Below are positions 11,032 through 56,589 of a DNA stretch of 64,000 nt, in pieces. How positions within the stretch are numbered: the stretch's first letter is position 1; the number at the start of each line of letters is the position of its first letter. Source of the DNA: Allostella sp. ATCC 35155. GTDB taxonomy: Bacteria > Pseudomonadota > Alphaproteobacteria > ATCC43930 > Allostellaceae. The DNA is taken from assembly GCA_006738865.1 (NCBI GenBank), contig AP019701.1, positions 4,274,001-4,338,000 of the forward strand, written 5' to 3'. The position numbers and the translations under genes are program-made. Under the pieces are notes generated by a model that made no database searches, was not told the origin of the DNA, and saw only the letters and a program-made list of their open reading frames with translations.

Positions 11032-12563
11032 GCACGGGGACGGCCATGGCGGGAGAGACGGAGGAGGGCTGGCTCGGCTGCCGGGTGCCGGAATATGCCC
11101 GGCGCAAACCGGACGCGCCCGCCATCCTCGCCGCGGACGAGACCGTGAGCTGGGGCGACTTCGCCCGGCGCGTGCTGGGCGCGGCCGCCGACTTCCATGC
11201 GCAGGGGGTCGTGCCGGGGACGACGGCCGCCATCCTGCTGCGCGACCGGCCGCAGGATCTGGTCGCCCTCTTCGCGCTGCAGCGCCTGGGGGCGGCGACG
11301 CTCTGCCTCGACCCAGACGAGCCGCCGGCACTGAGCGCCGCGCTGGCCGAGCGCGCCGGCGCCCGCTTCCTCGTCGCCGACCGCGACGACCCGGTGCCGC
11401 CCGGCCTCGCCGCCGTCGCCATGGCCGATACCCGGCCACAGGACGATCCGCCGCTGCCGCCGCCGCCCGGCCTCGACATGGTCAGCTTCGTCAGCCGCTC
11501 GTCCGGCACCACCGGCGGCATTCCCAAGCTGTCGACGGCCACCTTCCGGCTGGCGCTGCTGCGCGGCCGCGGCCTGCTGGAACGCTTCCGGCGCGGCGAG
11601 GATGACCGCTACCTGAAGCTGGTGCGCATCGCCTTCTCCTTCGGGCGCAACGCCGCCACCCGCGCGCTGGAGAATGGCGGCACCATCCTGCTGCCGCCGC
11701 CCTTCCGCGACGCTGGCGGCCTGACCGCCTATGCCGCCCGCACCGGCGCCACCTGGACGGCGCTGACCCCGGTGCATCTGCGCGACCTCGCCGCGGCCGA
11801 CGCGCCGGCGCCGATCCTGCCCGGCGTGCGCATCCTGTGCAGCACCGCCGCCCTGTCGCCGACCGAGATCCGCCGGATCCGCGAGCGCGTGTCCGCCGGC
11901 CTCCATGTCGGCTATGGCACCAACGAGGTCGGCGGCCTGACCCTGGCCTTGCCCGGCGACCTCGACGAGCGGCCGGAATCGGTCGGGCGGGTGCTGGCCG
12001 GCGTCACCGTCGAAGTGGTCGACGCCGACGGGGCGCCGCTGCCGGCGGGGCGGGTGGGCGAGCTGCGCTTCCGCCGGCCGGAATTCCCGACCGGCTATGT
12101 CGACCCCGCCCCCGGCTCATCCAGCCGCTTCGCCGGCGGCTGGTACTATCCGGGCGACGTCGGGATGCTCGACGCCGACGGCTATGTCTTCCTCAAGGGC
12201 CGGCTCGACGACGTCATCAATGTCGGCGGCCGCAAGCTCTATCCCGCCGACATCGAGGCGCAGCTGGCCCGGCACCCGGCGGTCGCCGAGGCGGCGGCCG
12301 TCGGCGTGGCGACGGCGCGCGAAGGGATGATCGCCGTCGCAGTCGCCGTGCTGCGCCGACCCTGCCCGCCGGAGGAGCTGCTGCGCCATTGCCGGGCGGG
12401 GCTGGGGCCGGCCCACAGCCCGCACGCGGTCGTCGTGGCGGACGCCCTGCCGCGCACCCCGCTCGGCAAGATCGACCGGGTCGCCATCGCCGGCGCGATC
12501 AAGCTGGAGCCGCCTCGCCCCGCCGGCCGGGGCAGGCGCCCCGCCGGACAGGCCACACCATGA
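11028..12563 (+). CDS. AMP-dependent acyl-adenylating enzyme, copy 1
   Basis: About 511 residues of the ANL superfamily (acyl-CoA synthetase-like), activating a carboxylic acid as acyl-AMP. Core motifs: P-loop SSGTTGGIPKL, A5 GYGTNEVGG, A7/A8 YYPGDVGMLDADGY and LKGRLDDVINVGGRKLYPADIE, and the C-terminal catalytic lysine in PLGKIDR. I chose the GTG at 11028 because it overlaps the UbiD stop; an ATG at 11046 is the alternative. The acceptor (CoA or a carrier protein) is unknown; no carrier protein gene is adjacent. It is clearly paralogous to the next gene, sharing RDRPQDL and the order of all motifs. Confidence 0.9.
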   Translation: MSTGTAMAGETEEGWLGCRVPEYARRKPDAPAILAADETVSWGDFARRVLGAAADFHAQGVVPGTTAAILLRDRPQDLVALFALQRLGAATLCLDPDEPPALSAALAERAGARFLVADRDDPVPPGLAAVAMADTRPQDDPPLPPPPGLDMVSFVSRSSGTTGGIPKLSTATFRLALLRGRGLLERFRRGEDDRYLKLVRIAFSFGRNAATRALENGGTILLPPPFRDAGGLTAYAARTGATWTALTPVHLRDLAAADAPAPILPGVRILCSTAALSPTEIRRIRERVSAGLHVGYGTNEVGGLTLALPGDLDERPESVGRVLAGVTVEVVDADGAPLPAGRVGELRFRRPEFPTGYVDPAPGSSSRFAGGWYYPGDVGMLDADGYVFLKGRLDDVINVGGRKLYPADIEAQLARHPAVAEAAAVGVATAREGMIAVAVAVLRRPCPPEELLRHCRAGLGPAHSPHAVVVADALPRTPLGKIDRVAIAGAIKLEPPRPAGRGRRPAGQATP

Positions 12564-14077
12564 CGACGACGCCCGGCGAGCCCGGCTGGATCGGCGCCGA
12601 GCTGGCCGACCACGCCGCCGCCCGCCCCGGCGCCGACGCCATCGTCGCAGCCGACGGCGCGATCCTCTCCTGGGCCGACTTCCACCGCATGGTGCTGGCG
12701 ACGGCGGGGTATCTCCATGCCCGCGGGCTGGAGCCCGGCATGACCGCGGCCCTGGTGATCCGCGACCGGCCGCAGGACCTCGCCGCCATCTTCGCCCTGC
12801 TGCGGCTCGGCGTCGCGCTGCTGGGGCTCGACCCGGCCGAGCCGGCGGAGATGAATGCAGAGCTGGTCGGCCGGTCGGGCGCGCGCTTCCTCATCGGTGA
12901 AGCCGGCGACGCGGTGCCGGCCGTGGGGACGGCGGGCGGGGTCGCATGGGCCGCGCTCGCCGATGTCGCCGCCGCGCCGCCGCTGGAACGGCCCTTGCCG
13001 CCGCCGCCCGACCCCGATGCCGTCGCCTTCGTCGCCCGGTCGTCCGGCACGACCGGCGGCGTTGCGAAGCTGACGCCGGCGAGCCACCGGCTGCTGCTGC
13101 GCCGCGGCCGGGGCATGCTGGCGGCCTTCCCGCGCGGGCCTGGCGACCGCTATCTCTCGCTGGTGCGCCTCGCCTTCGCCTTCGGCCGCAACGGGGCGCT
13201 GCGCGCGCTGCAGTGCGGCGGCGCCGTCATCCTGCCGCCGCCGCTGCAGCGGCCGGACGATCTGGCCGCGCTCGCCCGGGCGCGCGGCGCCACCTGGACC
13301 GCGATGACCCCGGCCCACCTGCGCGAGCTGGCGCGGGCGGAGACGGCGGAGCCGCTGCTCGGCGCCATGCGCATCCTCGCCAGCACCGCCGCGCTCTCCG
13401 TCGCGGAACGGCGGCTGGTGCGGGCGCGGGTCTCGCCCAACCTCATCGTCGGCTATGGCAGCAACGAGGTCGGCACACTCACCATGGCGATGGGCGAGGA
13501 TCACGAGGCGCGGCCGGGCACGGTCGGCCGCCTGCTGCCGGGCGTCGCGGGCGAGGCCGTCGGCGAGGACGGGCGCCCCCTCCCGCCGGGGGAGACGGGC
13601 GAGCTGCGCTTCCGCAGCCCGGACTTCCCGGCGGCCTATTTCGACGCGGTGCCGGGCCAGGCGAGCCGCTTCGCCGACGGCTGGTACTATCCGGGCGACG
13701 TCGGCGCGATCGATGCCGAGGGCTATTTCTTCCTGCGCGGCCGGTCCGACGACGTCATCAACGTCGGCGGCGTCAAGGTCTACCCGGCCGACATCGAGGC
13801 GGCGCTGGCCGCCCATCCCGCCGTCGCCGAGGCGGCCGTCGTCGCACTGCCGGCGGGCCGCAGCGGCGCCGCCCCCGCGGCGGCCGTGGTGCTGACGGCG
13901 CCGGCCAGCGCGGCCGACCTGCACCGCCACGTCGTCGAGCGCCTCGGCGCGGGACGGGCGCCGCGGCGCATCCTCGTCCTGCCGGCCCTGCCGCGGACCG
14001 CGCTCGACAAGGTCGACCGGGCGGCGCTGGTCCGCCTGCTCGCCGCGGGCGACCCCGGGGGCCGGGCGCCGGGCTAG
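12560..14077 (+). CDS. AMP-dependent acyl-adenylating enzyme, copy 2
   Basis: A 505-residue ANL-superfamily enzyme, tandem paralogue of the preceding gene with which it shares an ATGA overlap (12560-12563). Motifs: P-loop SSGTTGGVAKL (Ala replaces the usual Pro before the Lys), A5 GYGSNEVGT, A7 YYPGDVGAIDAEGY, A8 LRGRSDDVINVGGVKVYPADIE, and a terminal region ending ALDKVDR carrying the probable catalytic lysine. Two differing substrate pockets suggest two distinct acids are activated, or a split role of activation and transfer. Its stop shares the CTAG at 14074-14077 with the convergent LysE gene. Confidence 0.9.
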   Translation: MTTTPGEPGWIGAELADHAAARPGADAIVAADGAILSWADFHRMVLATAGYLHARGLEPGMTAALVIRDRPQDLAAIFALLRLGVALLGLDPAEPAEMNAELVGRSGARFLIGEAGDAVPAVGTAGGVAWAALADVAAAPPLERPLPPPPDPDAVAFVARSSGTTGGVAKLTPASHRLLLRRGRGMLAAFPRGPGDRYLSLVRLAFAFGRNGALRALQCGGAVILPPPLQRPDDLAALARARGATWTAMTPAHLRELARAETAEPLLGAMRILASTAALSVAERRLVRARVSPNLIVGYGSNEVGTLTMAMGEDHEARPGTVGRLLPGVAGEAVGEDGRPLPPGETGELRFRSPDFPAAYFDAVPGQASRFADGWYYPGDVGAIDAEGYFFLRGRSDDVINVGGVKVYPADIEAALAAHPAVAEAAVVALPAGRSGAAPAAAVVLTAPASAADLHRHVVERLGAGRAPRRILVLPALPRTALDKVDRAALVRLLAAGDPGGRAPG

Positions 14078-14715
14078 AGGCTGCCGGCAAGACCGGCCAG
14101 GGCCGCCGCGACCAGCGCCGCCGCCATGACGCGCTGCACCGCGCGTGCCGTCCGCGGCCGGGCGAGGCGCCCGGCGACCAGCACCGCCGCCGCCAGCCAG
14201 GCGAGGTGGACCAGCACCACCAGCGCGGCCAGGATCGCGAGCCGCGCCGCCAACTCGGCCGCGGGCGGGGCGATCGCCAGCCGGTGGCCGGCGACGACGG
14301 CGCCCAGCGCCAGCCACGCCTTGGGGTTGGCGAGCGCCAGCAGCACCCCGCCCGCGGGCGAGGGCGCGGCGGCGCCGGCGGCCGGGGGCGGTGCGGTCCA
14401 GATCTTCCAGGCGAGCCACAGCAGGTAGAGGGTGGCGGCCGCCGTCAGCGTCGGCGCCAGCCCCGGCCGTGCGTGCAGCAGCGCCCCGATGCCGCCCGCC
14501 AGCGCCAGCAGCACCAGGATCGTGCCGGCGGAGACGCCCGCCAGATAGGGCAGCGCCCGGCGGAAGCCGAAGGCGGTGCCGACCGCCACCACGCTCATGG
14601 TCGTCGGCCCCGGGCTGCCCATCACGGCGAGGGCCGCCGCCAGCAGGCCCGCCGCCGATGCCGCCAGTTCCGCCCCCTGCCCCATGCCGCCCTCCGCCGC
14701 TATGCTGTCCGCCAT
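14074..14715 (-). CDS. LysE family amino-acid/metabolite exporter
   Basis: About 213 residues with the LysE/RhtB pattern: an N-terminal helix with GSPGPTTMSVVAVGTAFGFRRALPYLAGVSAG, the mid-protein ANPKAWLALGAVVAG motif and roughly six membrane segments. The family exports amino acids or related small molecules. The ATG at 14715 sits in CCATGG and overlaps the divergent AraC gene start; the ATG at 14685 (MGQGAEL) is the likelier functional start because the intervening residues are not hydrophobic. It is convergent with the second ligase gene. It may export the product of the upstream cluster, but its direct partner is the AraC gene. Confidence 0.9.
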   Translation of the reverse strand: MADSIAAEGGMGQGAELAASAAGLLAAALAVMGSPGPTTMSVVAVGTAFGFRRALPYLAGVSAGTILVLLALAGGIGALLHARPGLAPTLTAAATLYLLWLAWKIWTAPPPAAGAAAPSPAGGVLLALANPKAWLALGAVVAGHRLAIAPPAAELAARLAILAALVVLVHLAWLAAAVLVAGRLARPRTARAVQRVMAAALVAAALAGLAGSL

Positions 14716-15571
14716 GGGACGGAGCATGGGACGCGGCGGCGGCGGCGGTCTTGAAGGGCTGTGCCCGGCATCCGGCGGGCCGGGCGGCACGGCCGCGATC
14801 CGCGCCGGCCTCGGCGGCCCCGGCATCGAGCGCACCGCGGTGCGCCTCGTCGGCCGCGGCTTTGCCCCGCACCGGCACGACACCTATGGCATCGGCTGGA
14901 CGGTCGCGGGCGTGCAGGCCTTCCGCTATCGCGGCGAGGGGCGCATCTGCCTGCCCGGCCAGTACCATGTGCTGCACCCGGACGAGCTGCATGACGGGCG
15001 GCCCGGCACGCCTGCGGGCTTTGCCTATCGCATCGCGCATATCGACCCCGCGCTGATCCAGGCGGCGCTGGGCGGGCGGCCCCTGCCCTTCGTGCCGGGC
15101 GGCGTGCTGGACGGGCGCGCGGCGCGCCTGCCGGCCGCCCTCTGGCGCCTGGAGGAGCCGATCGCCGGCATGGCCGGCGTCGAGGCGGTGGCCGCCGTCG
15201 CCGACACGCTGCTCGCCGCCGCCGGCGCCCCGCCCGCGCCGGCCCGGCCGCTGCCGCTGGCGGCACTCGCCCGCGCCCGCCAGGCGATCGCCGACGACCC
15301 GGCCCGCGCCCTCGCCGCCGCCCAGCTCGAACGGATCGCCGGCCTCGACCGCTGGACGCTGGCCCGCCGCTTCCGCGACGCCTACGGCACCAGCCCCACC
15401 CGCTTTCGCACGCTGCGCCAGCTCGACCACGCCCGCGCCGCCATCCGCGCCGGACTGCCGCTGGCCGAAGCCGCCGGCGCCGCCGGCTTCGCCGACCAGA
15501 GCCACCTGACCCGGCAGTTCAAGCGGGCGTATGGGATGACGCCGGGGGTGTGGGCGGGGGCGTTGGCGTGA
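14714..15571 (+). CDS. AraC family transcriptional regulator
   Basis: About 285 residues: an N-terminal cupin-like sensor (around 30-110, with PHRHDTYGIGWTVAG and GQYHVLHPDELHDGR) and a C-terminal double HTH (about 180-285) ending QSHLTRQFKRAYGMTPG, the AraC signature. The ATG at 14714 overlaps the LysE start on the other strand; a second ATG at 14726 follows. This AraC type is commonly found divergent from LysE or EamA exporters and controls them. An effector amino acid or analogue is likely but cannot be named from the sequence. Confidence 0.9.
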   Translation: MGRSMGRGGGGGLEGLCPASGGPGGTAAIRAGLGGPGIERTAVRLVGRGFAPHRHDTYGIGWTVAGVQAFRYRGEGRICLPGQYHVLHPDELHDGRPGTPAGFAYRIAHIDPALIQAALGGRPLPFVPGGVLDGRAARLPAALWRLEEPIAGMAGVEAVAAVADTLLAAAGAPPAPARPLPLAALARARQAIADDPARALAAAQLERIAGLDRWTLARRFRDAYGTSPTRFRTLRQLDHARAAIRAGLPLAEAAGAAGFADQSHLTRQFKRAYGMTPGVWAGALA

Positions 15572-15604: not shown

Positions 15605-16093
15605 TCAGTCAGGCGACCGCGCTGGGGGTTCGGCCCCCGCGCTCTCGGCGACCGGAGCGCCCCGGGCAATCGGCTGGTTCGGATCGTGGCGGCCCGTCGA
15701 AATCGCGAAATCGCCGGCTCGGTACTCCTCACCGGCCATCTTCCATCGCACGACGTACCAGCCCTCCTTCTCGAAGGTGACGGGGCCGATCGTGAACGAG
15801 AAGCTGAACGGCTCCCCGGGCCTCAATGTCGGCGAAGCGGGGAATTCCCCATCGATCTTGATGATCTGCTTGCGGTCGGGACCAAAGACGAGAACCTCCG
15901 TCGGCCCTGACATATCCCCTGCCTTGATTTGCGCCTCGATGCGGAAGCCCATCCGTGGGAGCTTCAAAGGCAGCTTCGGCGCGGCAATGATGCCGGAGAA
16001 TACGCCGAGCAACAGCTCCTTCCCGTTATCCTCGCGCCGAATGTCCTCACAGACGATCAGGGACCGGACCTTGATCCGGGACGGCGCCCTCAT
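15605..16093 (-). CDS. DUF6941-like protein
   Basis: A 162-residue soluble protein with no signal peptide. The N-terminal pattern RSLIVCEDIRREDNGKELLLGVFSGII is the recognisable start of DUF6941 family proteins, beta-rich proteins of unknown function. The C-terminal 30 residues are polar and Pro/Ala-rich, probably disordered. Its ATG overlaps the stop of the HTH gene (ATGA at 16090-16093). Its base composition is lower in G+C than that of its neighbours, as for the two genes before it. Confidence 0.7.
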   Translation of the reverse strand: MRAPSRIKVRSLIVCEDIRREDNGKELLLGVFSGIIAAPKLPLKLPRMGFRIEAQIKAGDMSGPTEVLVFGPDRKQIIKIDGEFPASPTLRPGEPFSFSFTIGPVTFEKEGWYVVRWKMAGEEYRAGDFAISTGRHDPNQPIARGAPVAESAGAEPPARSPD

Positions 16094-16509
16094 GCGGCAT
16101 GCTCCTCCCGCCGAAGGGTGCCCACGGAGGAGCCGCCGGGCACTTCCGCATCGCCGTTGCCGTGGCCGAGCGTGAATACCATCCCGGAACCGCGCTCGGG
16201 TGCCGACACGGTGGGGGGACGATTGCCAGGCTCGGTGTCGTACGGTCGCAGCATGAGGACCGGATAGTGGTTCATGGCGCCGGCCAGGGCGCCAACAGAC
16301 CCGGCCGTGATGTTGCCGTTCTCGCCCGAGAGCATGCGCGCCACCACGCTCCGATGCACGCCCAGGAGCCGGGCGAGTTCCGCCTTGCTAAGGCCGCGCG
16401 CAGACTCGCGCTCGTAGACGCGACGCAACTCGTCGACCAGCTCGACGTAGAAGCGGGCTGCCGTGGCGCGAACCTTCGGATCGCCGCTGGCCCTGCGCTT
16501 CTTGCCCAT
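16090..16509 (-). CDS. XRE-like helix-turn-helix protein
   Basis: A 139-residue protein. Residues about 35-75 contain an HTH motif: GLSKAELARLLGVHRSVVARMLSGE, in which helices 2 and 3 of a Cro/CI-type domain can be read. It follows a basic N-terminus (MGKKRRASGDPKVRATAAR). The C-terminal third is polar and unfamiliar. It lies two bases after the upstream gene's stop and overlaps the DUF6941 start, so the three form one operon. It is plausibly the autoregulator of the cassette, or an antitoxin-like partner of the 147-residue upstream protein; neither role is proven. Confidence 0.8.
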   Translation of the reverse strand: MGKKRRASGDPKVRATAARFYVELVDELRRVYERESARGLSKAELARLLGVHRSVVARMLSGENGNITAGSVGALAGAMNHYPVLMLRPYDTEPGNRPPTVSAPERGSGMVFTLGHGNGDAEVPGGSSVGTLRREEHAA

Positions 16510-16511
16510 CC

Positions 16512-16955
16512 CTAGGCTCCCTTGTAGTACGCGCCCAGACCGAGCTCGGCACGTTCGCGAAATATGCGATCCTTGATCGCGCCATAGCCGCCCAGCTTCG
16601 TCGCCACATCGTCGCGGTGATAGCCGAAGCAGGCGACGATCACATGCTCCGACTGCCGCCAGCCCGCCAGTCGAAGCTTCCGCTCCGCGAACTTGCCGAT
16701 GCCCTCCTTGCGCCCGCCAAGAGGCAGGAAGTACCGCGCGCCCCGCCCCAGAACGAAATGCGCCACCTGCGCGCGGAGCACGTCGATGCTCGCCAGATAG
16801 TGACCGTTCGGCATGCCGTCCGGCTCCCGGAGAAGAAAATCCCACGCTGGAGCCGTACACAGCACCTGGGCCTCGAAGGCATCGCCCGGGCGCCACACCG
16901 GAGGGTGATAGGGCCGCAAGAGCCCAGCATCGATCAGGTCCGCGATTGTTGCCAT
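16512..16955 (-). CDS. Unknown protein, first gene of the HTH/DUF6941 cassette
   Basis: A 147-residue soluble protein I do not recognise. Visible features are an aromatic-rich N-terminus (LLRPYHPPVWRPGDAF), the motifs HYLASIDVLRAQVAHFVLGRGARYFLPL and HVIVACFGYHRDDVATKLGGYG, and no membrane segment or signal peptide. The alternation of charged and aromatic residues suggests a folded alpha/beta domain. The partner HTH gene begins two bases after its stop, the arrangement seen in some toxin-antitoxin and regulator-sensor pairs. Confidence 0.65.
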   Translation of the reverse strand: MATIADLIDAGLLRPYHPPVWRPGDAFEAQVLCTAPAWDFLLREPDGMPNGHYLASIDVLRAQVAHFVLGRGARYFLPLGGRKEGIGKFAERKLRLAGWRQSEHVIVACFGYHRDDVATKLGGYGAIKDRIFRERAELGLGAYYKGA

Positions 16956-17064
16956 ATAAGGCTACACTGTGCCGCAATCAACCTCAACGGGGCTGCCGCA
17001 TTTCGTTCGATCCAGCGCCGCTGGTTTCTCGCGCACGGCGAACGACACTTGCAATTTTAAACAA

Positions 17065-17093
17065 TTTATCCGCGAAACCTAATTGGCGAGCAA
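17065..17093 (-). promoter_or_regulatory. Putative promoter of the 147-aa/HTH/DUF6941 cassette
   Basis: Within the AT-rich gap upstream of the cassette, the minus strand reads TTGCTC (complement of 17088-17093), a 17-base spacer, then GATAAA (complement of 17065-17070). It would give a leader of roughly 100 bases before the ATG at 16955. A TTCCCGA/TCGGGAA dyad at 17100-17115 lies directly upstream and could be an operator. This is a pattern match only. Confidence 0.35.
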
Positions 17094-17133
17094 GCGAAGT
17101 TCCCGATCTCGGGAATGCCCCGTCGGGTGTCGA

Positions 17134-27084: not shown

Positions 27085-27208
27085 GGCCCCATCCGCCATT
27101 CCGTTCGGGAGACGAAGTACGGCGGAGGATCAGGAGGATCAGTCCGCCTGATCCCGCCCGTCGGAGCGGCACTGTCGCCCATTTCGCTCGAGGGGAAGCG
27201 AGTCAGTC

Positions 27209-27910
27209 ATGAGCCGTAGGCGCCGACACGTCGAACGCCATGCGGTCGAACGGATCGGTTGGCTGCGAGCGGCCGTGCTCGGCGCCAATGACGGCATCCT
27301 ATCCACCGCCAGCCTGATCGTCGGCGTAGCCGCCGCCGACGCCGCGCGCGGCAGCATCCTCATCGCCGGGATGGCCGGGCTTGTCGCCGGGGCCATGTCG
27401 ATGGCCGCGGGCGAGTACGTCTCGGTCAGCTCGCAGTCCGACACCGAAAAGGCCGACATCGCCCGCGAGGCCGGCGAGCTGCGTGACAACCCGGAAGCGG
27501 AGCTTGACGAATTGACCGACATCTACGTCAAGCGCGGGCTGACACCTGACCTCGCCCGGCTGGTCGCCGTGCAGTTGACCGCGAACGGCGGGCTGGATGC
27601 CCATGTGCGCGACGAGCTGAATCTCTCGGAAATGACGGCAGCGCAGCCGGTGCAAGCCGCATTGACTTCGGCCGCGACCTTTGCCGCCGGCGCCGCGCTG
27701 CCGATGCTGACCCTGGCGATCGTGCCGGATCGGATCATCGCCGTCGCCGTCACTGTCTCAGCGCTCGTCTTCCTTGCGCTTCTGGGCGCCATCGGCGCGG
27801 CAGCGGGCGGTGCCGGTGTGACCAAGGCGGTGGTGCGGGTGACGTTCTGGGGCGCGATCGCGATGGCGATCACAGCTGGCATCGGCAAGCTGTTCGGCAC
27901 GATGGCATGA
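27209..27910 (+). CDS. VIT1/CCC1 family transporter
   Basis: A 233-residue membrane protein of the vacuolar iron transporter family, moving Fe2+ or Mn2+. The N-terminal block GWLRAAVLGANDGILSTASLIVGVAAA and MSMAAGEYVSVSSQSDTEKADI is the family signature (helices 1 and 2 with metal-path Asp, Met and Glu); a cytoplasmic metal-binding helical domain follows (about 70-150) and three more helices close the protein. It has a 124-base leader after the MoxR operon. Codon use here is somewhat less G+C-biased than in the flanking operons. Confidence 0.93.
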   Translation: MSRRRRHVERHAVERIGWLRAAVLGANDGILSTASLIVGVAAADAARGSILIAGMAGLVAGAMSMAAGEYVSVSSQSDTEKADIAREAGELRDNPEAELDELTDIYVKRGLTPDLARLVAVQLTANGGLDAHVRDELNLSEMTAAQPVQAALTSAATFAAGAALPMLTLAIVPDRIIAVAVTVSALVFLALLGAIGAAAGGAGVTKAVVRVTFWGAIAMAITAGIGKLFGTMA

Positions 27911-27938
27911 GCGCACGCAACCGGACGGGGTACAGGCC

Positions 27939-28391
27939 ATGAATCGCTGGGTTTCGCTGACCGGCTTTCTCGCCCTTACGGTGGGTGGTGGACTTGTCCT
28001 CGGTCTGCTCACCGCTCCGGGCGCATGGTACGCCGGCCTTGCCAAGCCTGCGTTCAACCCGCCGGCCTGGGTGTTCGGCCCGGTCTGGACAGCGCTCTAT
28101 GTGATGATTGCCGTCGCCGGCTGGCGCACCTTTGAGCGTGATCGCACCGGATGGCCGATGACGCTCTGGTGGGCGCAACTCGGGCTGAACTTCCTGTGGA
28201 CACCGGTGTTCTTCGCGGCCCATCGGATCGGACTGGCGCTCGTCGTCATCATGCTGATGCTGGCGACGCTCCTCGGCTTCATCGCCGCTGCATGGCGACG
28301 GGACCGCGCAGCGGCCTGGCTCTTCGTACCCTATGCCGCCTGGGTCGCTTTCGCCTCGGCGTTGAACGCGTCGCTATACTTGCTCAACTGA
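27939..28391 (+). CDS. tspO: TspO/MBR family protein
   Basis: A 150-residue five-helix membrane protein. PAFNPPAWVFGPVWTALYVMIAVAGWR and WWAQLGLNFLWTPVFF are the conserved tryptophan-rich signatures of the tryptophan-rich sensory protein/mitochondrial benzodiazepine receptor family, which binds porphyrins and is linked to oxidative and light stress responses. It lies 28 bases after the VIT gene and 74 bases before the eRF1-like gene, all on the same strand; the three may be one unit. Confidence 0.94.
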   Translation: MNRWVSLTGFLALTVGGGLVLGLLTAPGAWYAGLAKPAFNPPAWVFGPVWTALYVMIAVAGWRTFERDRTGWPMTLWWAQLGLNFLWTPVFFAAHRIGLALVVIMLMLATLLGFIAAAWRRDRAAAWLFVPYAAWVAFASALNASLYLLN

Positions 28392-28465
28392 GCGCACCTT
28401 CCCGCGTGGCACATCCGTGAATCGCGGCGTCGGGGATCCCGAAGTCAGGATATGGAGTTCGTCGC

Positions 28466-52326: not shown

Positions 52327-53651
52327 CACCCGGCCTCCGCCTGCATGCGCGTCGCGCGCCGCGAGCGCGCCGCGAAGCGTTCGAGCGCGGCCCAGTCGGC
52401 GATCCCGAGATCCGCCAACCGCGGCAGCATCGCCTGATAGATGCCGGCAGCCAGGAGCGCATCGCCGAGCGCGGTGTGCCGCCCGGTCGCCGGAATCCCG
52501 AAGCGGGCCGCAAGGCCATCCAGGTCGAGGTCGGTGCGGCCGGGGTCGAGGGCATCGGCGAGGCGGAAGAGACAGAGCGACGGTGGGCGCGGCCAGGAGG
52601 CGCCCGCCCGCGCGCACTCCGCATCGATCACCGCCAGGTCGAAACCGACATTGTGCCCGAGGACGACAGCGGCACCGATGAACTCCGTGAGCTCCGGCAG
52701 GACGGCCGCGAAGGGTGGCGCCGCGGCGACCATCGCATCGTCGATGCCGTGCACGGCGGTTGCGGCGGGCGGGATCGCCACGCCGGGCCGCACCAGCCGG
52801 TCCAGGGCGGCACCGCGGAAGATGCGGTCGCCATGCAGGCGCACCGCCGCGACGGACACGATCCGGTCGGTCGCCGGTGCCAGCCCGGTCGTCTCGGTAT
52901 CCAGCGACACCAGCGGCAATTCGGCGAGCGCGGTCGTGGCCGAGACCGTCATGGCCGGCGGCGGCCGATCGTGCAGGTCGAGCGCATGGTCGAGCGCGCG
53001 GTCCCAGGATTCCCCGGCCGGGAACGTCAGCACGACCCCCTCGCCGGCAGCGAGCGCGGTCACCTCCACCGCGACCGGCGCGCCGTCGAGCGTGGCGATC
53101 GATGCCGTCACCGGCCGGCCGCCCGCCCGCGCCGCCGCCATCGCCCGGCCGACATCCTCGCGGTCCAGCGCGTCGAAGACGCTGGTGCCGGGCATCAGCG
53201 TCCGCTCGCCGAAGCGCCGGCGCGCGGCACCGTTGGCGAGGCTGACGAGTCCGCTGTCGGTGAGCACGAGGACGCCCTGCGGCAGGCTCGCCAGGATCTG
53301 GCCCATGCGGCCGGCGACCCCGGCGGCCATGTGCGCACGGCGATCGGCCGCCCGCGCCGCGTGCAGCCGCAGCCCGGCGGCGCGCACGTCCGCCACCGCA
53401 GCGCCCTCGCCGGCCTCGGGCCTGGGCGGTACGCGGCCGGGATCGGCCGCCAGCCCGCCGAAGAGATCGGCCAGGCGGCGCAGCCCGCCGAACAGGGCCT
53501 GCAGTTCGGTCCAGACCGCGACGCAGACGATCGCCGCCGCAGCCGCGAGAAGCAGCGCGACGACCGGGGCGGCGTCGGCCAGCAGGCCGGCTCCGCCGGC
53601 GAGCAGTGCCGCCGCCGGCGCCGCGGTCAGGATAAGAGCGTGTCGCCGCAT
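52323..53651 (-). CDS. Membrane-anchored PAS-DEDDh exonuclease
   Basis: A 442-residue protein. Two N-terminal helices (about 7-25 and 28-47) anchor it; a PAS-like domain follows (about 113-210, GRMGQILASLPQGVLVLTDSGLVSLAN). The C-terminal 200 residues form a DNA polymerase III epsilon-type 3'-5' exonuclease: LVSLDTETTGL (D251, E253), VVLGHNVGFDLAVID and the GRHTALGDALL motif holding the last His and Asp. The ATG at 53651 overlaps the preceding gene by 25 bases. The PAS-exonuclease combination beside a symporter suggests a signalling role rather than proofreading. Confidence 0.9.
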   Translation of the reverse strand: MRRHALILTAAPAAALLAGGAGLLADAAPVVALLLAAAAAIVCVAVWTELQALFGGLRRLADLFGGLAADPGRVPPRPEAGEGAAVADVRAAGLRLHAARAADRRAHMAAGVAGRMGQILASLPQGVLVLTDSGLVSLANGAARRRFGERTLMPGTSVFDALDREDVGRAMAAARAGGRPVTASIATLDGAPVAVEVTALAAGEGVVLTFPAGESWDRALDHALDLHDRPPPAMTVSATTALAELPLVSLDTETTGLAPATDRIVSVAAVRLHGDRIFRGAALDRLVRPGVAIPPAATAVHGIDDAMVAAAPPFAAVLPELTEFIGAAVVLGHNVGFDLAVIDAECARAGASWPRPPSLCLFRLADALDPGRTDLDLDGLAARFGIPATGRHTALGDALLAAGIYQAMLPRLADLGIADWAALERFAARSRRATRMQAEAGW

Positions 53652-54280
53652 CCGGGCCGTTCCGGGCCGCCCGTCCCCCCCGCCAGACTGGCGGCCAGCG
53701 CCGCGCCGTCGAGGCGCCGCCGCAGCTTTCCGGCGACGGCCGCCATCTGGAAGGCGATCGCGCTCGTCACCATCGGGCCGTCCAGACGGCGCATGGCGAT
53801 ATGGATGGGCAACACGTCGAAGACGGCCCGCCCGGTGGCGTCGGCGACCTGCCGGATCGTGAGCGGGGGTGCCGTCTTCGCCGCCGCGAGGTCTTCTGCG
53901 AAGGCGGCGACGCGGTCGGCCCACCCGTTGGGGCGATGCAGCGGCCGCGCCTGGGCGTCCAGGACATCGGCATAGAGCGCGACCAGCCGCCGCTCGTCGA
54001 CCGGGGCCGGGATCAGCATGGCCGCCGTGCGGCAGATACCCGCCGCGACGCGCGCGAAGGATTCCCAGCGGCTGCGCGTCAGATCGTCCAGGAACGTCCG
54101 CTCGGAAGACAACAGGTGCCAGTTCCGGCCCGCCTTCGCCTGGCAATACTCGGTGACCACTTTCTGGGCGACGAACGCAGCCTGGGCCGAAATTACGTCG
54201 CGCAGTTCTTCGGCCGTCACGACCGGACGGCGGTCGCTGCCGATGCGCATACCTTCGAGCCAGGTACCGAGAAATCCCAC
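53627..54280 (-). CDS. Unknown protein of the symporter neighbourhood
   Basis: A 217-residue soluble helical protein I do not recognise. RSRWESFARVAAGICRTAAMLIPAPVDERRLVALYADVLDAQARPLHRPNGWADRVAAFAEDLAA and the C-terminal AVFDVLPIHIAMRRLDGPMVTSAIAFQMAAVAGKLRRRLD segment look like two helical modules. It is the first gene of the minus-strand unit with the exonuclease and DUF294 genes, and is divergent from the DUF4212 gene across a 196-base gap with an AT-rich stretch (about 54335-54352). Confidence 0.75.
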   Translation of the reverse strand: MGFLGTWLEGMRIGSDRRPVVTAEELRDVISAQAAFVAQKVVTEYCQAKAGRNWHLLSSERTFLDDLTRSRWESFARVAAGICRTAAMLIPAPVDERRLVALYADVLDAQARPLHRPNGWADRVAAFAEDLAAAKTAPPLTIRQVADATGRAVFDVLPIHIAMRRLDGPMVTSAIAFQMAAVAGKLRRRLDGAALAASLAGGTGGPERPGCGDTLLS

Positions 54281-54476
54281 CAGCCTGCCGACCTTTCTCT
54301 TGCGAGCACGTCGTTGTGTCGGATTCGCGAGAGTGTTAGTAATAATTCTGAAGGAGTCGGCCGTCCACCTCTTCCCGCCCGGGCGCTCGTTCCGGCGTCG
54401 AGGTGGCCGTTACGCTCCCAACAAAGCAGCAGGAATCGAGAATCGATCCGCGACTTTCCCAAGGGGGGAGAACAGC

Positions 54477-54746
54477 ATGGCAAGTCCCAAGCTGACGCCG
54501 GCACAAGCCGAGGCGCATTGGCGCAAGACATCCCGACTGATGTGGACCATCCTATTCATCTGGTTCCTGGCGGGCTTCGGCGTCCACTTCTTCGCAGTCC
54601 AGCTCAACCAGATCGTGATCTTCGGGTTTCCTCTCGGCTTCTACATGGCCGCGCAGGGCTCGTTGATCGTCTTCGTCATCCTCTGCGCCTGGAGTTCCTC
54701 GGCGCAGAACCGGATCGACGAGGAATTCGGCGTCGCCGAAGACTGA
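54477..54746 (+). CDS. DUF4212 small membrane subunit of a symporter
   Basis: An 89-residue protein with two membrane helices (about 22-42, LMWTILFIWFLAGFGVHFFAV, and 50-74) and the family's HWRKTSRLMW and NRIDEEFGV ends. It is the conserved companion of VC_2705-type sodium:solute symporters, equivalent to DUF485 for ActP. The ATG at 54477 has AAGGGGGGAG 6 bases upstream, a very strong site. The symporter starts 17 bases after its stop. Confidence 0.92.
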   Translation: MASPKLTPAQAEAHWRKTSRLMWTILFIWFLAGFGVHFFAVQLNQIVIFGFPLGFYMAAQGSLIVFVILCAWSSSAQNRIDEEFGVAED

Positions 54747-54762
54747 AGCGGGAGGGCGGACC

Positions 54763-56589
54763 ATGGCAGTCTCGACCGGATCGGCAAGCTTCCTCGCCAA
54801 TCTCGGCAAGGTCTACGGCACATACACCGGGGCCTTTCTCGTCTTCACCGTCGTGCTCGCGGTTCTCGAGCAGATGGGGCTACCCAACAGGTGGATCGGC
54901 TACGCCTTCGTCTTCCTGACGATCTTCGTCTATGCCTATATCGGCTACCTGTCCCGGACGATGGAAATCTCCGAGTACTACGTAGCCGGGCGAACGGTGC
55001 CAGCCTTCTACAACGGCATGGCGACGGGCGCCGACTGGATGAGCGCGGCGTCGTTCATCTCCATGGCAGGCGGCCTCTTCATTTCCGGCTACAACGGCAT
55101 GGGCTTCGTGCTGGGCTGGACCGGCGGCTACGTCCTGGTGGCGATCCTGCTTGCGCCCTATCTGCGCAAGTTCGGACAGTTCACGGTCCCGGACTTCCTC
55201 GGCACCCGCTATGAGGGCAACGTCGCGCGCATCTGCGGCGTCGTGGTGCTGTTCTGCGCGTCCTTCACCTACATCGTCGCCCAGGCCTTCGGCATCGGCA
55301 TCATCACCTCGCGCTTCCTCGGCATTCCGTTCGAGTTCGCGATCTTCGCCGGACTGGTCGGCATCCTCGTCTGCTCGATGCTGGGCGGCATGCGGGCCGT
55401 CACCTGGACCCAGGTGGCGCAGTACATCATCCTCATCATCGCCTATCTCGTGCCCGTCGTCTGGCTGTCGACGACCAAGTACGGCATCCCGATCCCGGAG
55501 CTGACCTACGGGCAGGCGCTGAGCGAGATCACCGCGCTCGAAGACAAGCTGAACATCGTCCGCCGCCACGTCGAGCCGTTCGTCAATGCGGCCGGCCAGT
55601 TCAGCTGGACCGAGTTCCACAACTTCTGGGCGCTGGTGCTCTGTCTGATGGTCGGCACGGCATCGCTGCCGCACATCCTGATGCGCTACTTCACGACGCC
55701 GAACGTGCGCGAAGCCCGCCAGTCGGTGGCATGGAGCATCTTCTTCATCTTCCTGCTCTACTTCACCGCGCCGGCCTACGCCGCCTTCGCCAAGCTCGAG
55801 GTCTACCAGAACGTCATCGGCGCCCAGATCTCCACGCTCCCGGCATGGGTGCAGAGCTGGTCGCAGGTCGGCGGCCTGCTGACGATCAACGACGTCAACG
55901 GCAACGGCATCCTCGACGTCACCAAGTACGCGGTGGCGGGGCCGTTCCTCGACCTCGGCGAGTTGCGCATCAACCAGGACATCATCGTCCTCTCGATGCC
56001 GGAGGTGGCCGGCCTGCCCTACGTCATCTCGGGCCTGGTCGCGGCCGGCGGACTGGCGGCGGCCCTGTCGACCGCCGACGGACTGCTGCTCGCCATCGCC
56101 AACGCCCTGTCGCACGATGTCTACTACAAGATGATCGATCCGACGGCGTCGACGAAGCGGCGGCTGACGGTCGCGCGCACGCTGCTCATCCTCGTCGCGA
56201 TCCTGGCGGCGGTGGTGGCGGGCACCCGGCCCTCCGGCATCATCCAGATGGTGGCCTGGGCCTTCTCCCTGGCCGCGGCCGGCCTGTTCGCGCCGCTTGT
56301 CATGGGGATCTGGTGGAAACGCACCACGACGGTGGGCGCCATCACCGGCATGATCGCCGGCTTCGGCGTCTGCATGTACTATCTGATCTCCACCCACTAT
56401 TTCGGGGCACCACTGTGGTTCGGCATCCGGAACATCTCGAGCGCGATATTCGGGCTGCCGGTCGCCTTCATCGTGACCTGGCTGGTCAGCCTGGTGACGA
56501 CGCCACCGTCACCCGAAATGCAGGACTTCGTGGACTCGATCCGCGTGCCGCGCGGCGACGTGCGCGGCATCGCGGCCGCCCACGAATAG
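54763..56589 (+). CDS. Sodium:solute symporter, VC_2705 (acetate-type) family
   Basis: A 608-residue SSS-family transporter with about 13 helices. SRTMEISEYYVAGRTVPAFYNGMATGADWMSAASFISMAGGLFISG is the family start; GLPYVISGLVAAGGLAAALSTADGLLLAIANALSHD is the Na+ site region, and LPHILMRYFTTPNVREARQSV the conserved cytoplasmic loop. The likely substrate is acetate or another short monocarboxylate with Na+. It is paired with DUF4212 upstream and ends at a strong terminator (56609-56649). It is divergent from the DUF294/exonuclease regulators. Confidence 0.94.
   Translation: MAVSTGSASFLANLGKVYGTYTGAFLVFTVVLAVLEQMGLPNRWIGYAFVFLTIFVYAYIGYLSRTMEISEYYVAGRTVPAFYNGMATGADWMSAASFISMAGGLFISGYNGMGFVLGWTGGYVLVAILLAPYLRKFGQFTVPDFLGTRYEGNVARICGVVVLFCASFTYIVAQAFGIGIITSRFLGIPFEFAIFAGLVGILVCSMLGGMRAVTWTQVAQYIILIIAYLVPVVWLSTTKYGIPIPELTYGQALSEITALEDKLNIVRRHVEPFVNAAGQFSWTEFHNFWALVLCLMVGTASLPHILMRYFTTPNVREARQSVAWSIFFIFLLYFTAPAYAAFAKLEVYQNVIGAQISTLPAWVQSWSQVGGLLTINDVNGNGILDVTKYAVAGPFLDLGELRINQDIIVLSMPEVAGLPYVISGLVAAGGLAAALSTADGLLLAIANALSHDVYYKMIDPTASTKRRLTVARTLLILVAILAAVVAGTRPSGIIQMVAWAFSLAAAGLFAPLVMGIWWKRTTTVGAITGMIAGFGVCMYYLISTHYFGAPLWFGIRNISSAIFGLPVAFIVTWLVSLVTTPPSPEMQDFVDSIRVPRGDVRGIAAAHE

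Follow-up and report, generated by a model that had tools for sequence, protein, structure and literature searches.

A candidate three-part toxin-antitoxin module with a DUF6941 protein in Allostella sp. ATCC 35155

A 64,000-nucleotide stretch of the genome of Allostella sp. ATCC 35155 (contig AP019701.1, forward-strand positions 4,274,001 to 4,338,000; hereafter, the window) carries a minus-strand operon of three small genes, which probably constitutes a type II toxin-antitoxin module that is mobile, has three parts and works in the manner of the toxin-antitoxin-chaperone (TAC) systems, with a DUF6941 protein in the place of the chaperone. A preliminary description of the sequence had singled out the compact layout and likened it to toxin-antitoxin, anti-phage or other accessory modules. 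The open reading frames (ORFs) and their translations bear out the layout, with a 2-base gap between the first two genes and a 4-base overlap (ATGA) between the second and the third, an arrangement of small abutting or overlapping genes expected of type II modules; among the proposed functions, the toxin-antitoxin one is best supported by the predicted fold, the mobile distribution and the variable genomic spot. The components of the cassette are the following:

16512..16955, minus strand: toxin-like gene P0001 (ORF, 147 residues), divergent member of an undescribed family with a predicted RelE/HigB fold, putative toxin
16090..16509, minus strand: helix-turn-helix (HTH) gene P0002 (ORF and Pfam, 139 residues, Xre/HTH_3, HTH at residues 33-80), putative antitoxin and autoregulator
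16093..16248, minus strand: C-terminal tail of P0002 (residues 88-139, 52 residues by hand count), putative DUF6941-binding extension, assigned by comparison with the tail tables of relatives, outside of which the window's own antitoxin lies
15605..16093, minus strand: DUF6941 gene P0003 (162 residues, modelled as all-beta), putative guard of the antitoxin as the third component

The toxin family and its predicted fold

P0001 has no match at E up to 1 in Pfam, PHROGs, NCBIfam or PADLOC, and its relatives are equally elusive: 28 of them lack a match in NCBIfam (E up to 0.01) and PHROGs (E up to 0.001), and eight gave no credible match in Pfam and none at all in PADLOC. Sequence matches to known families do not place P0001 in the RelE/ParE superfamily. 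Direct searches with P0001 found no relative among genome contigs, plasmids, phages and viral contigs, and nine non-self matches with E of 0.003-0.008 in 385 genomes of the class; the family was reached through the DUF6941 neighbours. By profile comparison, P0001 nevertheless belongs to an undescribed family, to which hhalign aligned it over 138 columns (probability 95.3%, E 2.2e-8), and a hidden Markov model of 28 other members picks it up at E 3e-5 among the ORFs of the fetched loci. In alignment A5, Arg95 is the only position conserved without exception across the 21 rows, and it is presumably the counterpart of a RelE catalytic arginine; Lys88, His113 and Arg114 are also present in P0001.

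An AlphaFold model of P0001, built with 20 relatives, reached a predicted local distance difference test score (pLDDT) of 82.5 and a predicted template modelling score (pTM) of 0.79 (the other four models average 69-72), and over residues 30-138 consists of a strand, two helices, a short strand, three strands and a helix. The top 32 Foldseek rows are titled toxin or toxin-antitoxin complex, except for Cami1 (rank 17) and HP0894 (rank 25), both of which we take to be RelE-type. VIA-align placed Streptococcus pneumoniae 6af4_G first (Z 10.6, root-mean-square deviation (rmsd) 2.9 over 106 residues), followed by 6af3_C (Z 10.1, rmsd 2.8, 104 residues) and, third, Mycobacterium tuberculosis HigB1 7awk (Z 9.0, rmsd 3.9, 105 residues). 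On this predicted model, with Z up to 10.6, the protein has the RelE (BECR) fold, and a housekeeping enzyme, which the preliminary description had left as the alternative outcome of a fold prediction, is not indicated; sequence searches of the PDB with both alignments gave nothing credible. In predicted fold, strand order, best structural matches and HTH partner, P0001 resembles the RelE/ParE superfamily (HigB, Gp49, RelE, ParE, YoeB), from which it differs in lacking a sequence match to a listed family and in the ~27 residues that precede the matched RelE core.

Gene order in phages, plasmids and genomes

The order of the cassette is more than chance, because the same three genes recur in that order in unrelated phages, plasmids and genomes. 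A search of viral contigs with a DUF6941 alignment recovered 47 loci, comprising 18 with a P0001-family gene, 26 in which a second toxin-like type precedes DUF6941 and three with neither; the typing relied on models to which many of these loci had contributed, which makes 44 of the 47 assignments partly a matter of construction, and several contigs are near-duplicates. A more independent check is the reverse search, in which an alignment of seven toxin-family proteins (themselves taken from DUF6941 loci and counted among the hits) found 18 viral loci, all of them with an HTH gene and DUF6941 directly downstream and nine on contigs outside the DUF6941 search set. Scans of the viral contigs with P0002 alone or P0003 alone found no relatives. 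Searching plasmids with two family members gave nine matching records, and all seven that were fetched, from Rhizobium, Bosea and Niveispirillum, carry the three genes; the remaining records, H9 and H11, appear to be near-duplicates of H8 and H10. Synechococcus phage MinM1 likewise has the trio, annotated as hypothetical, helix-turn-helix and hypothetical. Plasmids, among the places in which the preliminary description had suggested looking, thus do harbour the 147-residue family together with the HTH and DUF6941 genes, as do phages.

Within the class, the Alphaproteobacteria, DUF6941 was found in 10 of 385 genomes, including the one under study. The nine other loci comprise six with a P0001-family gene upstream (L041 and L043-L047, with no recognised HTH in L046), two with another small first protein (L039 and L040) and one cut by a contig end (L042). 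The first protein of L039 and L040 looks HigB-like by eye, has no credible Pfam match and was not counted as a toxin. The toxin family is present in 14 of 318 class genomes, the window included. The Pfam DUF6941 model gave one match, below cut-off, over 398 genomes; it missed the window's own copy and, therefore, its negatives mean little.

The third gene, the antitoxin tail and competing explanations

P0002 matches HTH_3 in Pfam (E 2.2e-7, 31.3 bits, cut-off 23). P0003 is a member of DUF6941 (PF22091; 41.2 bits, cut-off 27), the only Pfam family that it matches at E up to 1, with no match to the SecB family, and 18 of the 23 members in alignment A6 match phrog_31406, an entry without stated function. 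Its model (pLDDT 87.9, pTM 0.79), made of strands only with no helix of at least four residues, predicts an all-beta sandwich. The structural matches (UNC119, PDE-delta and the Wzt carbohydrate-binding domain, Z up to 9.7) say little on its role, because such beta sandwiches serve many functions, and the absence of SecB from the structural rows excludes nothing, no direct comparison with SecB having been made. DUF6941 is mentioned in no paper of the literature searched, most subscription journals and preprints being outside its scope, and titles and abstract beginnings on three-part toxin-antitoxin modules and on beta-sandwich or immunoglobulin-like partners revealed nothing of this kind.

In TAC systems, the chaperone binds a C-terminal extension of the antitoxin and the pair is transferable (PMC5105189), CmdC senses a capsid protein (PMC11618068) and the trigger of HigBAC is the major tail protein of lambda (PMC11980606). 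The cassette resembles these systems (M. tuberculosis HigB1-HigA1-SecB-like, HigBAC and CmdTAC) in comprising three proteins, with an extended antitoxin and a gene for a third protein, and in the predicted RelE/HigB fold of its toxin, which is that of the HigB1 and HigBAC toxins. It differs from them in that the third protein is a DUF6941 protein, predicted to be all-beta and without a SecB family match in Pfam, and in that its toxin family is unmatched in the four libraries as searched; we do not file it as TAC, because a SecB-like third gene is not shown. Two-gene HigBA and Gp49-HTH modules share with it a toxin gene followed by an Xre-type partner, gp49 modules being tabled in toxin-then-antitoxin order in PMC11980606, and differ in having neither the third gene nor the long antitoxin tail.

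In this reading, the first gene would encode a protein of predicted RelE/HigB fold, probably acting by cleavage of mRNA, and the second an Xre-type antitoxin that, as its HTH and the gene order suggest, would bind the toxin and repress the operon, ending in a variable, probably disordered tail. The DUF6941 protein would probably bind the antitoxin, perhaps via this tail, and keep it stable; its loss from the antitoxin, for instance when it captures a phage product, would, by analogy with TAC systems, release the toxin. A bolder proposal, that DUF6941 proteins are a non-SecB class of infection sensors, immunoglobulin-like sandwiches that clamp the antitoxin (probably by its tail), recognise incoming phage or plasmid proteins and are traded between at least two toxin types, is tentative, and we regard it as possible rather than probable. 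DUF6941, a family to which the libraries assign no function and which is here tied to toxin-antitoxin-like pairs, gains a testable role, and a family with a predicted RelE-type toxin fold that the searched protein libraries miss is described. If DUF6941 guards antitoxins, ‘chaperone-addicted’ toxin-antitoxin modules have arisen with an unrelated fold, and the natural exchanges of DUF6941 between modules would offer a direct route to what the modules sense.

The tails of 34 distinct DUF6941-linked antitoxins measure 38-80 residues, compared with 21 residues in the antitoxin of L052 (n=1), which has no DUF6941; a shared tail peptide motif, seen by eye in a few sequences, is not established. Among 39 non-redundant toxin-family trios, a set that excludes the window itself and the second-type loci, pairwise identities correlate between toxin and HTH core (Mantel r 0.80), toxin and DUF6941 (0.34), HTH and DUF6941 (0.31) and tail and DUF6941 (0.18), none of 2000 permutations reaching any of these values; with the other two components controlled, the partial HTH-DUF6941 correlation is 0.057 (reached in 217 of 2000). 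The loci L115 and L116 are 97% identical in the toxin, 100% in the HTH core, 50% in the tail and 66% in DUF6941. Their DNA is 97-100% identical over most of the toxin and HTH core, with 92% over the 60 bases that immediately precede the drop, and 53-78% identical between the tail start and the DUF6941 end. The block that follows has 77%, a single block of 60 bases after it recovers to 98%, and beyond this identity is 73-77%. A drop in DNA identity at the start of the tail is also seen in the pairs L102/L123 and L072/L112. Such pairs suggest that the tail changes rapidly and that modules exchange DUF6941, at times both at once.

The second toxin-like type is, on reading of its sequences, regarded less firmly as RelE/ParE-like: among seven of its proteins, one lies above the Pfam cut-off (Gp49, E 2.4e-8), three give sub-threshold ParE_toxin matches and three neither. 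Its antitoxins carry the extension at the N-terminus, that is, away from DUF6941. In 17 non-redundant modules (L061, L104 and L076 having been dropped as unlike), the partial correlation with DUF6941 is 0.366 for the extension (1 of 2000 permutations) and 0.479 for the HTH core (0 of 2000); the latter being higher, the second-type correlation does not single out the tail. One such module, a second-type toxin-like frame with DUF6941, lies near the cI repressor gene of Pseudomonas phage MR13 (L053:3110-4402), in a region whose annotation gives several small genes, either hypothetical or HTH.

A number of observations weigh against a tripartite module of this kind. P0001 is very divergent, with 12-21% identity to its family, its best Foldseek E is 1.7e-3, and a stop lies within the toxin frame in two copies, G216/L132 (the Niveispirillum region L055, at the same coordinates in both) and G106/L143. 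Of the seven second-type proteins, six have no Pfam match above cut-off, and the profile of the second type hardly aligns to that of the toxin family (hhalign probability 3.5%, score 20.9, the best of 100 shuffles reaching 18.1). The evidence on the tail is mixed: the partial tail-DUF6941 correlation, 0.098 (18 of 2000 permutations), is below the partial toxin-DUF6941 value of 0.157 (5 of 2000), part of the joint divergence of tail and DUF6941 could be explained by the adjacency of their genes, in the pair L144/L146 only the tail dips, DUF6941 keeping 84% identity, and L072 and L087 share DUF6941 (81%) with 24% identity in the toxin, 31% in the HTH and 19% in the tail. Long tails also occur without DUF6941, in L134 (70 residues) and L140 (60 residues), both with other third genes. 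Finally, the trio is not always complete. DUF6941 is missing beside toxin and HTH in L052 (in G387), no HTH is recognised beside toxin and DUF6941 in L142, and DUF6941 stands without either toxin type in three of seven genome-contig loci. In the 13 toxin-family genomes other than that of the window, DUF6941 lies beside the toxin gene in seven, contig ends cut the locus in three, and in three something else follows, which is either a gene matching DUF3467 (25.2 bits against a cut-off of 25), an open frame joined to a DUF429-like region that falls slightly short of the cut-off, or a gene without assignment. The third gene is thus usual, yet replaceable.

The incomplete loci, together with the strong co-variation of toxin and HTH core (r 0.80, as against 0.34 and 0.31 with DUF6941), could be taken to mean that the cassette is an ordinary two-protein RelE/HigB-Xre pair, some such pairs lacking DUF6941 altogether, which would then be a loosely linked passenger outside toxin control. 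We consider this unlikely, since all 18 viral loci recovered by searching with the toxin family rather than with DUF6941, and all seven fetched plasmid loci, preserve the three-gene order, and DUF6941 follows two toxin-like types. More doubtful still is an arrangement likened to the ParE-PaaA-PaaR three-part modules, in which DUF6941 would itself neutralise the toxin and the HTH protein would serve only as operon repressor; L142 and the partial toxin-DUF6941 correlation would fit it, whereas the toxin co-varies most closely with the HTH core and L052 retains toxin and HTH without DUF6941. Least probable is a phage-derived regulatory or superinfection-control cassette with a RelE-fold protein that is no longer toxic. 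The divergence of P0001 could point to it, as could two annotated phage copies in which the DUF6941 module sits close to a repressor gene of cI or S24 type; against it, Arg95 remains invariant, Lys88, His113 and Arg114 are also kept, and the module extends beyond phages to large plasmids and chromosomes. A TAC-like tripartite module remains the preferred reading.

Several loci depart from the usual trio. In L140:363-1274, a toxin-family gene and an HTH gene are followed by the DUF3467 gene in the place of DUF6941, a possible alternative third component, and in L139:1706-3220 the HTH part continues in one open frame into the DUF429-like region, with a stop in the adjoining toxin frame. In Desulfobacterales and Omnitrophota bins (L106, L108, L109), no gene of either toxin type precedes DUF6941; in L106 and L109, an HSDR_N and a tRNA_edit gene stand upstream of it. 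The viral contig locus L095:2747-3724 has an IS1595-type transposase gene ~260 bases upstream of the DUF6941 gene.

Genomic setting and base composition

The cassette is accessory. P0001 was detected only in its own genome among 99 searched and P0003 in one of four genomes of the genus, again its own. The comparison of close strains that the preliminary description had called for thus found neither gene in the three congeners examined, P0002 not having been searched there by itself. Together with the occurrence of the family on viral contigs and plasmids, this gives the patchy, mobile distribution expected of type II modules. A neighbouring gene, read as cca by inspection of its sequence, is present in all four genus genomes, with gene order conserved on one side; its cassette side differs between congeners, making the spot 3' of it variable. 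In G001 and G002 a gene that we take to encode an acyl-CoA ligase lies within ~100 bases 3' of the cca-like gene, directly after it in G001. In G003 (L048:7542-9102) the spot holds two genes, one of HTH type (HTH_3, 24.1 bits against a cut-off of 23) and one with a HipA_C match (E 1.7e-49), and, given this pair, may be a toxin-antitoxin hot spot. In the window itself, the cassette is separated from the conserved ligase-like gene by a further ligase-like frame, one LysE gene and one gene of AraC type (12563-15571).

The lower G+C attributed to the cassette is confirmed (0.664, against 0.723 window-wide), yet is not unique there: of 627 sliding windows as long as the cassette, 34 are as low or lower, three of which overlap the cassette itself. 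An ‘AT-rich promoter region’ had also been described upstream of the operon:

16956..17133, no strand: low-G+C intergenic stretch, likely promoter/operator from its composition

The composition of this stretch (G+C 0.551) agrees with that description, the promoter less so: a sigma-70 scan upstream of the operon found no promoter-like site, and a palindrome search there found no clear operator. Two further low-G+C regions were noted, covered by 1351-base stretches starting at 27101-28401 and 53501-55801, the second of which falls to 0.62, below the cassette.
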